From Bacteroidaceae bacterium (lineage in GTDB: Bacteria > Bacteroidota > Bacteroidia > Bacteroidales > Bacteroidaceae): a stretch of 10,580 bases of DNA. This document shows, in pieces, positions 4,493 to 8,416 of the stretch. The notes beneath the pieces are model-generated. The model was not told the origin of the DNA, searched no databases, and saw only the letters and a program-made list of their open reading frames with translations. Location of the stretch: NCBI GenBank assembly GCA_021443285.1, contig JABUUG010000030.1, forward strand, positions 1,356 to 11,935, read 5' to 3'. The position numbers and the translations under genes were made by a program. Every line of letters begins with the position of its first letter. Position 1 is the stretch's first letter.

Positions 4493-6223
4493 TTACTTGA
4501 GACCGAACCAGTCTGTCTCAAAGATGATGTCCGACATCGTCTGCTTTTCTTCTTCGCTCAGTTTGTTTTTGTCAGCAGAGAATATGCTGCTGCCCACACC
4601 CCTCCATTTCTGTTTTGTCCCGAACAGCCCGAGCATCGTCGGGTAGAAATCGGTTTGGCAGATGGCATGAAGGTCTGCCCCTGCGTTTGCATTGTCTGCC
4701 CCCGCGTTCGGAGCATCAGCGCCGAATGACACTCCCCCCGTGAATATCAGCGGTATCGGGTCGCGATTGTCGCCGCTCCACTCACCACCCACATGGTGGT
4801 CGGAGGCTATCACGACAAGCGTGTTCTGCCATAGGCCCTCTTTCTTCAACACCGCGATAAAGCGGCCCAGGTGGAAGTCGAAGAAGTTTGCGCGCTCGTA
4901 ATAGTACAGCTTGTTTTTCGGCAGCTTGTCGTCATGGAAGTCCTTCAGCCGCTTGCCGAACTGCTTGGAGAACGGTGTGTGCGTCGTCATGTTCAGAACG
5001 GTCAGGAAGAACGGTCTGCCCTTCAGCTTGCCAAGCGTTTCTATGGCATAGTCCATCAGTATGCCGTCGTCAACCTCGCCGTAGTCCGTCGCCGCATAAA
5101 GGGAGTCTATGCCATACGCCCTGCACATCCGGTCCTGATGCCATATATGCCCGCCCGTAGGGATAACCATAGCCGTCTGCATGCCCTTTTCCTTCATCAC
5201 GCTGCCAAGCCCGATATACTCATTCCCGGCAAAACTGCTCACCACCACCTTACGGCTGTGCGGCAGCAGTCCCGTCATGTATATCAGCTGCCCGTCGCTG
5301 CTCCACCCGTTGTGCACCTCCGACCTCATGTTGAAGTTGGCATACGATGCCCCGCGAGCCATACGCCAGAGGTTCGGCATTACGGTGTCGCCGCTGCATA
5401 CAGCAGTAACAGCGTCCGACACTATCGCCTCCATAAGCACAAACACCACATTGCATTTCCCAACGGCTTTCGCGCAGCCCGCCACCGTGTCCGTCGCTGT
5501 TTCGCCGGATGACAAAGCCCCGCCTTCCAGCGGCATGAAGCGCTCACGGTGGTTGTTCATGAAGCGGCGGTCGTCATCGGTGGCATCGCGGTTCATATCG
5601 GAATGATACAGATTGAACGCCGTAAGCTGGGTCAGGCCGAACATCTCCGCTATGATAACACTGCTGGAGATACTGCCCTCGTCCATGAAGGCGAACACCT
5701 CAAGCGAATAGTTGCGCGTGCCTCTTGCCACGAGACCATAAATACCGAAGAACGAAAGAACAGCCAAAACCGCGAAATAACGCAGCCTCATCCACGCGAG
5801 CCTGCGCCACTGCCTGCGCCAGGCAAGGAAATAGAATGCGCAGAAATAAAGTGCGGTCACCACTATATCGCCTGCCCTGACCAGCGCCCCAATGCTCTCC
5901 GCAAGGATGTCAAAATTGCGCACCTCGCCTATGAGCGTCAAATCCATGCAGTCATGGAACTGCCGGAAATACACGACATTAGACAAACAGAACAGCCAGA
6001 ACACTGCCGCAACAATCCATCCCCACAACGCAGAAAAACGGTGCAGGGGCTTCACACCGCCAAACAGTCCGGTAAACACTGTTACCACCGCTGCATCGAG
6101 CGACATATTACATATAAGTATCGCAACGAACAGCGGCCCGTCCAAATCGTCATCGCCGATGAACCCGTAATGGGTGTAACAGAGCAGCAGGAAATATATT
6201 ATGAACGAAACAGGGAGGGACAT
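4493..6223 (-). CDS. LTA-synthase-like membrane phospho-group transferase (alkaline phosphatase/sulfatase superfamily)
   Basis: This 576-residue protein has five N-terminal membrane helices (about 4-18, 31-55, 66-86, 118-134, 147-166), a linker to about 255, then an extracytoplasmic catalytic domain, the architecture of LtaS and related phosphoglycerol or phosphoethanolamine transferases. Expected catalytic residues are present: E265 in VVFVLMEA (metal), S308 in GWSSDGQ (the nucleophile position, Thr in LtaS), H415 in MTTHTPF, and D475-H476 in VIASDHHVGG (metal). It should therefore be an active enzyme adding a phosphorylated headgroup to a periplasmic glycan or lipid. True lipoteichoic acid is not expected in a Bacteroidota cell, so LPS, capsule or glycolipid decoration is likelier. 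It lies 28 bp after the GT-B glycosyltransferase. Residues 500-517 are an odd Gly/Ala/Asn/Asp insert (GADAPNAGADNANAGAD) between the IPLIFTGG strand and the DFYPTMLGLFG helix. Family assignment is strong; substrate is unknown. Confidence 0.85.
   Translation of the reverse strand: MSLPVSFIIYFLLLCYTHYGFIGDDDLDGPLFVAILICNMSLDAAVVTVFTGLFGGVKPLHRFSALWGWIVAAVFWLFCLSNVVYFRQFHDCMDLTLIGEVRNFDILAESIGALVRAGDIVVTALYFCAFYFLAWRRQWRRLAWMRLRYFAVLAVLSFFGIYGLVARGTRNYSLEVFAFMDEGSISSSVIIAEMFGLTQLTAFNLYHSDMNRDATDDDRRFMNNHRERFMPLEGGALSSGETATDTVAGCAKAVGKCNVVFVLMEAIVSDAVTAVCSGDTVMPNLWRMARGASYANFNMRSEVHNGWSSDGQLIYMTGLLPHSRKVVVSSFAGNEYIGLGSVMKEKGMQTAMVIPTGGHIWHQDRMCRAYGIDSLYAATDYGEVDDGILMDYAIETLGKLKGRPFFLTVLNMTTHTPFSKQFGKRLKDFHDDKLPKNKLYYYERANFFDFHLGRFIAVLKKEGLWQNTLVVIASDHHVGGEWSGDNRDPIPLIFTGGVSFGADAPNAGADNANAGADLHAICQTDFYPTMLGLFGTKQKWRGVGSSIFSADKNKLSEEEKQTMSDIIFETDWFGLK
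4673..4726 (-). repeat. In-frame insert repeat: FGADAPNAG copy 1 followed by 21-bp period repeats
   Basis: On the minus strand this encodes F then GADAPNA, GADNANA and GAD, a seven-residue (21-bp) period: the DNA unit AACGC(G/A)GGGGCAGAC recurs 21 bp apart with one mismatch. The first 27 nt (4700-4726) match the copy in the family 2 glycosyltransferase gene at 23 of 27 positions. Bases 4707-4726 form an imperfect palindrome (plus strand TTCGGAGCATCAGCGCCGAA; stem TTCGG/CCGAA plus inner GC/GC, loop ATCA). Related LTA-synthase-like proteins usually have a short turn here. Confidence 0.8.
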
Positions 6224-6265: not shown

Positions 6266-7385
6266 CCTTACAAAGTCTGTGGTACACCGTCTCATACTCC
6301 CTCGCCACCTTTATATGGTCATGATGCCGCCGCACATACTCTTGCGAGTCATGCTTCAGGCGGTTGATGTCAGCGCGGAGGATTAGTTTTTCCAATTCTT
6401 CATAAACGCTTTCCTCTGTGGGCTGCACATTTATTATGGGCCGCAGGTCGTGCTCATCGATTATTCCGTACTGTTCCTCTTCGCCGCCACCCACAACTAT
6501 CACCCCTCTGTTCATGGCTTCGAGGGCATTCATCGCGGGGGTGTAGGCATAGAGCTGGTCGAGGATGATGTCTGCCCTTGCATACATCCTCTTGTATTCC
6601 TCAAAGGGCAGACCTTCTGCCACGAGCAGTTCCACTCGGTCGCTCCATTTCTCGGCAATGCGCTGCGCCGCACGCAGCATGATGTCAGTTCCCTTATATG
6701 ATGACCGTGCCCGCGAGATACCCACAAACACGCGCAGTTTATCCTGCCGGTCAGCTGTAACGCCCGTCTTGGCAGCAGGCACTTCTGAAGGATGTGCTAT
6801 CTTTATAGGGAGGGGGATGAAGGTGGTCTTATCCTTAAATTCAGTGTGGTCGTAAGTTACCTTATACTCGTAGAGTGCGGCGACAATGGCGTCGCAGTCG
6901 GCAGCGATGTATTTGTTCAGACGTTCCTTCGCAGTGCTTACCCAGTCGTTGTAGTCCTTCATGGCAGTAGGGTCGTTGCGCTGCGTGTCGCCGATGTTGA
7001 AGTCGGAATAGCGCAGGGGCTTCTGGTGGGCATTGACGTAAGCCCAATAGTAGTCCATGCCGTATGCCCCGAGCACTATCTTACCATTATGGCGGCGCAG
7101 GTAGTTGTAGAAGAAGAACAACCGCTCGGCTTTCAGTTCGAGGAACATCGGGTTTATCAGCTGAACCACATCATATCCGCGCATACGGGGCAGCAGCGCC
7201 AGCAGTCTGATGTATAGCGACAGTCCGCCGAACCTGCTATCACGGCGCGCCACATCAATGTCGCGCGGATAGTTCTTCCAGTAGTCGCCGTTTGACATCA
7301 CTGTAACCTTATGCCCCAAGCTCCGCAGCCCTTCCGCAAGAGTCCAGTGTACATTGCTGTATTCGCCGAGCAGTAGTATTCTCAT
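6252..7385 (-). CDS. GT-B fold glycosyltransferase (family 4-like)
   Basis: This 377-residue cytoplasmic protein has an N-terminal Rossmann domain starting MRILLLGEYSNVHWTLAEGLRSLGHKVTVM, the usual GT4 opening with a glycine-containing acceptor loop. The C-terminal donor-binding domain starts near residue 217 (LRVFVGISRARSSYKGTDIML, with candidate phosphate-binding R226/R228 and K231). It continues with YKRMYARADIILDQLY and NALEAMNRGVIVVGGGEE. E289 fits the second Glu of the EX7E motif of retaining GT4 enzymes; the first position is Y281, so the classical motif is incomplete. It probably transfers a sugar from a nucleotide donor to a lipid-linked glycan. The ATG at 7383-7385 overlaps the upstream family 2 glycosyltransferase stop as ATGA, implying translational coupling. 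The last codons lie in a 27-bp duplication that fixes the stop position. Donor and acceptor are unknown. Confidence 0.85.
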   Translation of the reverse strand: MRILLLGEYSNVHWTLAEGLRSLGHKVTVMSNGDYWKNYPRDIDVARRDSRFGGLSLYIRLLALLPRMRGYDVVQLINPMFLELKAERLFFFYNYLRRHNGKIVLGAYGMDYYWAYVNAHQKPLRYSDFNIGDTQRNDPTAMKDYNDWVSTAKERLNKYIAADCDAIVAALYEYKVTYDHTEFKDKTTFIPLPIKIAHPSEVPAAKTGVTADRQDKLRVFVGISRARSSYKGTDIMLRAAQRIAEKWSDRVELLVAEGLPFEEYKRMYARADIILDQLYAYTPAMNALEAMNRGVIVVGGGEEEQYGIIDEHDLRPIINVQPTEESVYEELEKLILRADINRLKHDSQEYVRRHHDHIKVAREYETVYHRLCKVKKV

Positions 7386-8416
7386 AACTTATACGCCAAC
7401 AGTTTCAGAAGCTCAGGCTTGCTCACATGTCCTATCGCAGACAGCAGGCATTGCCATGAAAGGCTGACGTTGATGGGATATTTCCCGCCAGTCGCCATGC
7501 AATAGTCTTTCCTCACATTCAGCATCGAGGCGAACAACTTGGCGTATGCCCCGCCTTTTCGTTTCTGTTCGGGTATCCACTCCACGAGGTTCTTCAGTCC
7601 GTCGAGGTGGTCTTTATACTGCTGTGCACCCGACTTCTGGCATATACCGTCAGGGCTTAATGTGTAGAAATAGCATCCGCCATCGTAAGTAACAATGCGC
7701 CGCGCCCTCGACAGCCATTTGGGCAGGGCATGAATATCCTCAAATGTCTTGCCATCAGCAAAGAAGCCCCCTGCGACATTTGTTCCGCCATTGTCCTCAG
7801 GTATCAGCACCCGGCGACGGTAAATCTTATTCCATGCGTATGAGTGGAGGAACGCCTTGGTCTCGTAAAGGTAGGATATTGCATCCTCATAAAAATCAAC
7901 GGTGAAGGTAATCATCTCCTTCTTCAGGAAGTCGTTGTAGAACTTCGCAACGGGGAACTCCACCACATCCACATCGTCAGCACACTCAAAGAACTCCATC
8001 TGCTTGGAATAGGTGTTCCTGCCAAGGAAATCGTCGGCATCCACAAAGGTTATCAGCTCACCTGTCGAGGCATTTATGCCGGCATTTCGCGCAGACGACA
8101 GCCCACCATTCTCCTTGTGTATTACGACTATCCTACAGCTTTCATCCTCATACTGCCGCTTTATGTTGTCGCACATCTCGCCGCTGCCGTCGGTAGAACC
8201 GTCATCTACGAGGACTATCTCCAGCAATGCGCCGCCCGTATCTTCTCCTCCAGTACCTTCATTAACCCCTGCGTTCGGGGCGTCAGCTCCGAATTTCATC
8301 GCTTCTCCATCCCTCTCTGTTTCGGATGAAATATCCTGTAGCACCACGCTGTCCACGCACCGCATCAGCGATGCACTCGCATTATAGACCGGTATGATTA
8401 CAGATAATCTTGACAT
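7382..8416 (-). CDS. Family 2 glycosyltransferase with an in-frame loop insert
   Basis: With the ATG at 8414-8416 this is a 344-residue GT-A enzyme beginning MSRLSVIIPVYNAS, the standard family start, 13 bp after the antiporter stop. An upstream in-frame ATG at 8461 would add 15 residues (MCQQCSGRKN and onwards) overlapping the antiporter and unlike the family, so it is not chosen. Motifs in order: EIVLVDDGSTDGS (D71, D72, nucleotide binding), NGGLSSARNAGI (103-114), FVDADDF (D126-x-D128, metal/donor binding) and TFEDIHALPKWL (E226, D227, candidate catalytic base). Unusually, about 35 residues (30-64) containing FGADAPNAG are inserted between the first helix (CVDSVVLQDI) and the second strand (LEIVLVDDG), where the family normally has a few residues. 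Core motifs are intact, so activity is plausible. It overlaps the next gene by 4 bp. The sugar transferred cannot be told from sequence. Confidence 0.87.
   Translation of the reverse strand: MSRLSVIIPVYNASASLMRCVDSVVLQDISSETERDGEAMKFGADAPNAGVNEGTGGEDTGGALLEIVLVDDGSTDGSGEMCDNIKRQYEDESCRIVVIHKENGGLSSARNAGINASTGELITFVDADDFLGRNTYSKQMEFFECADDVDVVEFPVAKFYNDFLKKEMITFTVDFYEDAISYLYETKAFLHSYAWNKIYRRRVLIPEDNGGTNVAGGFFADGKTFEDIHALPKWLSRARRIVTYDGGCYFYTLSPDGICQKSGAQQYKDHLDGLKNLVEWIPEQKRKGGAYAKLFASMLNVRKDYCMATGGKYPINVSLSWQCLLSAIGHVSKPELLKLLAYKL
8267..8293 (-). repeat. FGADAPNAG palindromic element, copy 2
   Basis: This 27-nt segment inside the family 2 glycosyltransferase gene encodes FGADAPNAG and matches 4700-4726 at 23 of 27 positions; the four differences are all at third codon positions and silent. 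Bases 8274-8293 form a plus-strand hairpin TTCGGGGC-GTCA-GCTCCGAA, an 8-bp stem with one G-T wobble. It is embedded in a larger low-complexity insert (about 8225-8329) rich in Gly, Glu, Asp and Thr. Confidence 0.8.

Follow-up and report, generated by a model that had tools for sequence, protein, structure and literature searches.

Palindromic repeats lying inside genes, both REPs and RPEs, have already been published (the parts of PMC3733652 and PMC6006769 on which we draw throughout). As described in the first of these, CGTC REPs and RPEs have a stem of 8-9 bp with A-T in the first and second position and a loop of 4-5 nt, and the hosts of REPs include tRNA synthetases and DNA repair genes (PMC3733652). 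GTAG REPs are given stems of 5-13 bp and loops of 2-20 nt (Table 1 of PMC3733652). In addition, atypical REP-like structures of TnpA subclass 2.6 are reported mostly from Bacteroidetes and are described as lacking the GT[AG]G consensus (PMC6006769).

We examined a 10,580-nt stretch of DNA (the window) in which two neighbouring genes both encode the peptide FGADAPNAG, and the peptide arises because a short DNA repeat able to form a hairpin is translated in both. The source genome (G000) is a draft of 2,558,877 bases in 309 contigs, 76.8% complete, and its bacterium is termed Prevotella-like here because the closest named HisRS matches, among the best 80 listed, are Prevotellaceae/Prevotella at no more than 81%. 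The explanation that we favor, with a probability of roughly 0.8, is a REP/RPE-like mobile palindrome of about 30 nt that is present at 94 or more places in this single genome and may owe its spread to movement of the RAYT type.

The element is most readily compared with RPE-4 and RPE-6 of Rickettsia and with the CGTC REPs, which it resembles as a short palindrome with an 8-bp stem, a 4-nt loop, tens of copies and a patchy occurrence (PMC3733652, in part). Pairs 1 and 2 of its stem are mostly A-T, copies are read in frame inside unrelated genes (16 with family support here, judged from their sequences), and its hosts are of matching kinds, namely HisRS, PriA and MutS2. A transposase partner has been found in neither case, going by the part of PMC3733652 used here. 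However, the CGTC, TGTC or CCTC tag described there is absent from the element, whose foot is AGCCACTGTG or AGCCCCCGCG. The CCA-like unpaired tail is absent as well, the stem being followed by TAA/AAA-like letters. Head-to-head dimers are said in the same source to predominate, whereas the element forms three close pairs (within 100 nt), all in the same orientation, and its host is a Prevotella-like bacterium.

The GTAG REPs and REPINs, which are moved by RAYT (TnpA_REP), have in common with the element a one-sided foot hairpin and a high copy number. Its 8-bp stem, 4-nt loop and 94 dispersed places fall within the GTAG REP ranges, and like them it lies mainly between co-directional and convergent genes. 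The GTAG/GTGG tetranucleotide 5' of the hairpin is nevertheless absent from the foot consensus of 39 aligned copies and from the position counts of 91, and a RAYT gene flanked by the repeat was not found in the 77%-complete assembly. The repeats of subclass 2.6, compared by description only, are alike in phylum, in the absence of GT[AG]G and in having copies elsewhere in the genome, but they adjoin their own transposase gene (PMC6006769, in part), and no cognate gene was found for the element in its assembly. The coding palindromes of Nematomorpha mitochondria are also inverted repeats within coding sequence, but as described in the relevant part of PMC6649704 they are long, up to 284 bp, and mitochondrial, and do not form a dispersed 30-nt family. 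We found no report in the open-access PMC literature of in-gene palindromes of Prevotella or Bacteroidales, of this tag, of this host or of this species-restricted burst, and an element family with neither a GTAG nor a CGTC tag in a Prevotella-like genome is apparently unreported.

The two copies of the window

Both copies of the peptide are encoded on the minus strand, as the first-pass annotation had stated. The first (8267-8293) lies in a family 2 glycosyltransferase gene (GT2; 7385..8416, 344 amino acids from the ATG at 8416; PF00535, 7.2e-28), and the second (4700-4726) in a gene for an LTA-synthase-like membrane protein of the sulfatase fold (4493..6223, 576 amino acids; PF00884, 6.1e-20). 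A direct comparison of the two 27-nt copies bore out the claim that their four differences are all synonymous third positions. What that annotation overlooked is that the 27-mer is mostly palindromic and that each copy makes up most of a 30-nt element, the aligned unit extending 3 nt further in both cases. In its foot-first orientation the element lies on the plus strand, antisense to both genes. Copy 1 (8264..8293) consists of a 10-nt foot (8264-8273) and a hairpin (8274-8293) with an 8-bp stem and a 4-nt loop, and reads CCCCTGCG-TTCGGGGC-GTCA-GCTCCGAA over 8266-8293. Copy 2 (4697..4726) has its foot at 4697-4706 and its hairpin, with one stem mismatch, at 4707-4726, and reads CCCCCGCG-TTCGGAGC-ATCA-GCGCCGAA over 4699-4726. 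Both belong to subfamily A as defined below, and they score 42.1 bits (E 1.4e-9) and 40.3 bits (E 5.1e-9), respectively, with a covariance model whose training set includes them.

As DNA, copy 1 folds with -6.8 kcal/mol and copy 2 with -8.9 kcal/mol, energies equalled by 4 and 1 of 200 shuffles, respectively. The palindrome occurs at two places in the window compared to a shuffle mean of 0.02, and one of 200 shuffles also had two. A weak model match at 5480-5509 (15.9 bits, E 0.2) is regarded as chance.

The claim that relatives lack the peptide was confirmed by homolog alignment at both loci. In GT2, about 33 codons (minus strand, 8225..8323, ends approximate) that hold copy 1 and its Gly/Glu-rich flanks have no counterpart in the nearest homologs: a 33-residue gap is present in 15 of the 16 homologs shown, and the sixteenth (P0064) is truncated there. 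The loop region of the LTA-synthase-like gene (minus strand, 4673..4726) comprises copy 2 and, behind it, a direct duplication of 21 nt (NAGAD..NAGAD), and it is about 8 residues longer than in the nearest homologs, with an 8-residue gap in all 16 homologs shown. Both inserts are predicted as low-confidence loops in the AlphaFold models, with a pLDDT of 52-63 at GT2 residues 31-60 (28 of the 32 other ten-residue blocks exceed 90) and of 49-54 at residues 501-520 of the LTA-synthase-like protein; low values also occur outside the inserts, at GT2 residues 211-220 (69) and LTA-synthase-like residues 231-250 (49). No near-identical empty site was found for the element. The protein database, in which same-species empty sites were sought, had no close entries apart from the proteins of the window itself, the next matches being at 62-65% for GT2 and 46-49% for the LTA-synthase-like protein.

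Two features of the surroundings were also observed. The 21-nt tandem duplication behind the NAGAD repeat adjoins copy 2 at 4672-4711, and several in-gene copies are bordered by purine-rich codons for Gly and Glu. Such codons were noted at 8225-8263 and 8294-8323 in the window and at loci L032 and L059, and they are also present without the element, in a linker of L032.

The element family in the source genome and its relatives

The search of the genome for further copies that the first-pass annotation had proposed was productive, as a degenerate FGADAPNAG pattern gave 8 matches against none in the reversed control. The 30-nt unit joins a foot on one side to a palindrome, CCCCCGCG-TTCGGAGC-GTCA-GCTCCGAA, and the palindrome TTCGGAGC-N4-GCTCCGAA with up to three mismatches occupies 64 genomic places against 5 in the reversed control. 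From 50 foot-first copies we picked 39 with a recognisable foot for a gap-free alignment. Their foot consensus is AGCC[CA]C[CT]G[CT]G (position counts were also made in 91 copies), and 97.1% of the cells of the 8-bp stem hold standard pairs. Compensatory changes were found at five of the eight stem pairs, with 16 cells changed on both sides. None of 500 shuffles reached any of the five measures of pairing, and slid partners paired at no more than 49%. Stem pair 1 is U-A in 39/39 copies and pair 2 in 33/39. Positions 30-32 after the stem, counted in 91 copies, are mostly T/A, A and A and weakly conserved.

With the covariance model (R1), built from the 39 copies, which match it by construction, we located 94 distinct places in the genome (2.56 Mb, 77% complete) at E<0.001. 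Of the 95 rows below E 0.001, one is the opposite strand of another, and the 94 places are a lower bound because 150 of 1,093 first-look candidates were scored. The table of 95 places used below consists of the 94 (the start of C48 extended by hand) plus C33 (E 0.205, 16 bits); a copy in PriA (20.1 bits, E 0.011) falls outside it. Among the 91 copies with full flanks, a loop rule separates two subfamilies: A (42 copies), with the foot CCCCCGCG and a loop that is mostly GTCA or ATCA, and B (49 copies), with the foot GCCACTGTG and a loop that is mostly TATT or TACT. In seven copies the element runs on as a longer composite into ATCGGCTTTTGCCGCTTGCCAGAGCAAG or a variant (C177, C83, C15, C250, C210, C254 and C309:2106, hairpin followed by ATCGGC(T)nGCCGCTTGCCAGAGCAAG or a variant).

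In the other genomes searched the family was not found. We searched 299 genomes of the same genus (130 of them with a completeness of 90% or more and a contamination of 5% or less) for exact TTCGGNNC-N4-GNNCCGAA. The source genome had 38 places, 58 others had 1-3 and 240 had none, compared to 0-3 in the reversed control. Among the places listed, the arms of matches in other genomes are mostly not self-complementary. In 60 relatives (the source genome included), two others had 1-2 one-mismatch matches. Both scans used fixed arm letters and would miss a relative with different arms. The exact subfamily-A hairpin plus foot was found neither in GTDB genome contigs, a collection that possibly omits the source genome, nor in viral contigs. 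These comparisons indicate that the element family, at the family level, is confined to the source genome among the 299 genus genomes searched.

Host genes, reading frames and orthologs

At least 16 copies, two of them in the window, lie in frame inside genes with protein-family support, in both orientations and in several frames. By Pfam, the hosts are GT2, two LTA-synthase-like proteins, HisRS, a GDSL esterase, MenD (TPP-enzyme domains by Pfam, MenD by its PDB alignment), PriA, Tex, GH115, DUF4922/SpoIID, an O-methyltransferase, an ABC transporter, a periplasmic-binding plus AraC regulator, a Sde182-like protein, NAGLU and MutS2. Further copies lie in long open frames that have no family support for frame or position (L053, the HprK-like L026 and shorter frames). 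Long reading frames remain open through the genic copies.

The translations vary with frame and strand. Seven A copies read as [FS]GA[DNG]AP[NK]xG, the FGADAPNAG type, and two A copies, read on the opposite strand of the palindrome, give AFGASAP[NK]. The PAFGASAPN of HisRS looks like the tag for one reason alone, namely that in this frame both strands of the palindrome give the same reading. Other frames give CSEHQLQ (L026) and GISSE within VPGISSETF (PriA). The B copies give RNSSSEHSG (in Tex), RRNSAEHGG, RHNNAEHSG, FGTVVPN, VFGTTMP, VFDATVP and VFGTTAV (in MutS2). Via the composite, Tex and the Sde182-like protein have ILALASGAGRLR in common, and a search with Tex matched the Sde182-like gene at residues 392-431.

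By sequence alignment, the segment is lacking from the orthologs examined at five loci, namely GT2, the LTA-synthase-like gene, HisRS, Tex and MenD. The HisRS segment has 45 residues, compared to 32 in 77 of 109 orthologs; 107 of the 109 are shorter, one is equal and one is longer. The Tex segment has 80 residues versus 51-65 in 23/23 rows and the MenD segment 90 versus no more than 74 in 25/25 rows, some of them truncated; the rows for these two include some loci with the same gene twice or with a truncated gene. Alignments to PDB structures for MenD, Tex, GH115 and HisRS place extra query residues at the insert places, and the one for PriA leaves residues 148-245 unaligned, which is compatible with an insert and imprecise. 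The extra lengths differ from the 30-nt unit, at about 99 nt in GT2, 39 nt in HisRS and 24 nt in the LTA-synthase-like gene.

Most tabulated copies lie elsewhere: 17 of the 95 were treated as genic and 78 were not. A simple ORF caller assigned both neighbours to 55 of these 78, flagged 9 as inside an open frame and left 14 without a neighbour. The 55 resolvable copies are arranged as unidirectional (36), convergent (14) and divergent (5), an order also reported for REPs in the relevant part of PMC3733652.

Probable movement of the element and alternative explanations

We hold it highly probable, on the evidence of its copies and their sites, that the element is a mobile palindrome. As such it would be non-autonomous and would be copied or pasted as single-stranded hairpin DNA, the enzyme, supplied in trans, being a RAYT-type HUH (Y1) transposase. 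It would land in genic and intergenic DNA alike, and in-gene insertions would persist only if their length leaves the frame intact and they sit in a loop or linker tolerant of extra residues. The 23% of the genome that the assembly lacks would contain the transposase gene, unless the gene has since been lost.

The RAYT step itself we rate at about even odds on the Y1 findings that follow. No RAYT gene was found in the 77% complete assembly, and its one Y1_Tnp match, 99 aa long, is a remnant of the IS200/IS605 type that has another hairpin and lacks the element. By eye, this locus (L073, on C243) shows an IS605-type TnpA remnant beside a TnpB-like frame, and next to them an open frame resembling a reverse transcriptase, possibly a diversity-generating retroelement. 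In relatives, 9 of 18 Y1 loci have at least two palindromes (7-8-bp stem, 3-4-nt loop) within 700 bp, by a reading by eye that had no background control. The five Y1 proteins of these relatives that were tested (~150 aa) match the IS200/IS605 model, two of them above the cut-off, and two also match REP_Tyr_transpos below the cut-off.

A replication-strand (lagging-strand) bias was considered as support for a single-strand mechanism and rejected. The skew of the foot-first strand is negative (C-rich over G) for 71 of 95 copies at 300-1500 bp; at 1.5-8 kb it is so for 35 of 59, with a bootstrap interval that includes zero. Since the skew is local and not seen at the longer distance, we make no single-strand claim from it.

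Among the alternatives, a MITE-type element moved by a DDE transposase via terminal inverted repeats would account for a small, palindromic, non-autonomous and dispersed repeat, and a larger inverted repeat, AGTTTGCTGCCGCG...CGCGGCAGCAAACT, does enclose three copies and has a fourth next to one of its arms. However, what is conserved is one hairpin whose foot is on one side only, and the flanks, inspected by eye, show no evident target-site duplication, so we consider this alternative improbable. The larger repeat itself is bordered by ATTCACT-like repeats (L024:7054, L052:2037, L036:2039 and L031:2530).

A non-mobile DNA or RNA signal kept by selection at each site, such as a protein-binding palindrome, a leader or terminator hairpin or an uptake sequence, appears less probable still. 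Compensatory stem changes, the many intergenic copies, some B copies that lie directly upstream of start codons and the co-orientation of neighbouring copies on one contig (23 of 30 adjacent pairs, p=0.005) would all suit such a signal. A conserved signal should be shared, though, and the 298 other genus genomes gave none at the family level. The element also sits in loops of conserved enzymes whose orthologs are without it, and the window has no Rfam match at the gathering threshold.

The first-pass annotation had weighed a dispersed element inserting in frame against selection on the peptide itself. The former is upheld by copy number, segment-free orthologs and many unrelated hosts. The latter, in which FGADAPNAG would be an interaction, export or modification tag and the similarity of the DNA would stem from recent duplication of a useful tag, we regard as very unlikely. 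It is true that the seven copies treated as genic in this frame (six with family support plus L053) read FGADAPNAG or a close variant, and that the family-supported A copies in that orientation leave the other open frame of the strand unused. However, open frames without family support do use it (C279, C108:1796 and C291:8297), and PriA, Tex, MutS2, NAGLU and other copies are read in different frames or orientations. The seven copies depart from the A consensus by 5 synonymous codon changes and 8 replacements, a ratio that does not differ from the 37 and 60 obtained when the 34 A copies outside that frame are scored in it (Fisher p=1, and p=1 for a test of third positions). The codon test therefore gives no signal of peptide selection as the cause of the similarity, and the four silent differences that had been taken as a sign of constraint are a small-sample accident. 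Moreover, 78 of the 95 tabulated copies lie outside the genes counted here, and the hosts, judged by family, mix cytoplasmic with membrane or secreted proteins. Chance convergence or an artefact of a draft assembly (309 contigs, 77% complete) is hardly credible given 94 distinct places across many contigs, 64 palindrome places versus 5 in the control and long frames that stay open through genic copies.

The HisRS loop may have received sequence more than once. HisRS genes of two other Prevotella-named/Prevotellaceae genomes (L267:1436-1454 and L268:1436-1454) have an extended loop at the same place as the element-bearing HisRS, in which a perfect 8-bp palindrome, GCTGCGAC-TCT-GTCGCAGC, comes straight after GTAG, the arrangement of GTAG REPs. 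It occurs once in each and nowhere else among 459 loci. The two count as one case because 1326 of 1383 bases (96%) of their HisRS are identical, and chance is possible because such palindromes, of which the HisRS matches have 5 in 140,958 bases (L267/L268 included), also occur 56 times in 183,027 flanking bases. In further relatives (L276, L278 and L328) the HisRS loop has low-complexity tracts (CTCTCACC, TTCTCAATTCTCC or CCCCCTGCC repeats), which would suit a hot spot of insertion. We tentatively raise the possibility, while thinking it doubtful, that Prevotella-like bacteria repeatedly gain species-specific palindromes from which essential enzymes acquire new surface loops, and that the HisRS loop before LARGLNYYTG is a landing pad for unrelated palindromes in different lineages, the element here and the GTAG-preceded palindrome in L267/L268.

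The Rickettsia-type translation of selfish palindromes within conserved proteins now extends to a Prevotella-like bacterium. The finding also cautions that short peptides common to unrelated proteins may be DNA repeats rather than motifs. Finally, the apparently recent natural insertions in HisRS, MenD, PriA, Tex and MutS2 are useful for asking which loops accept new sequence.
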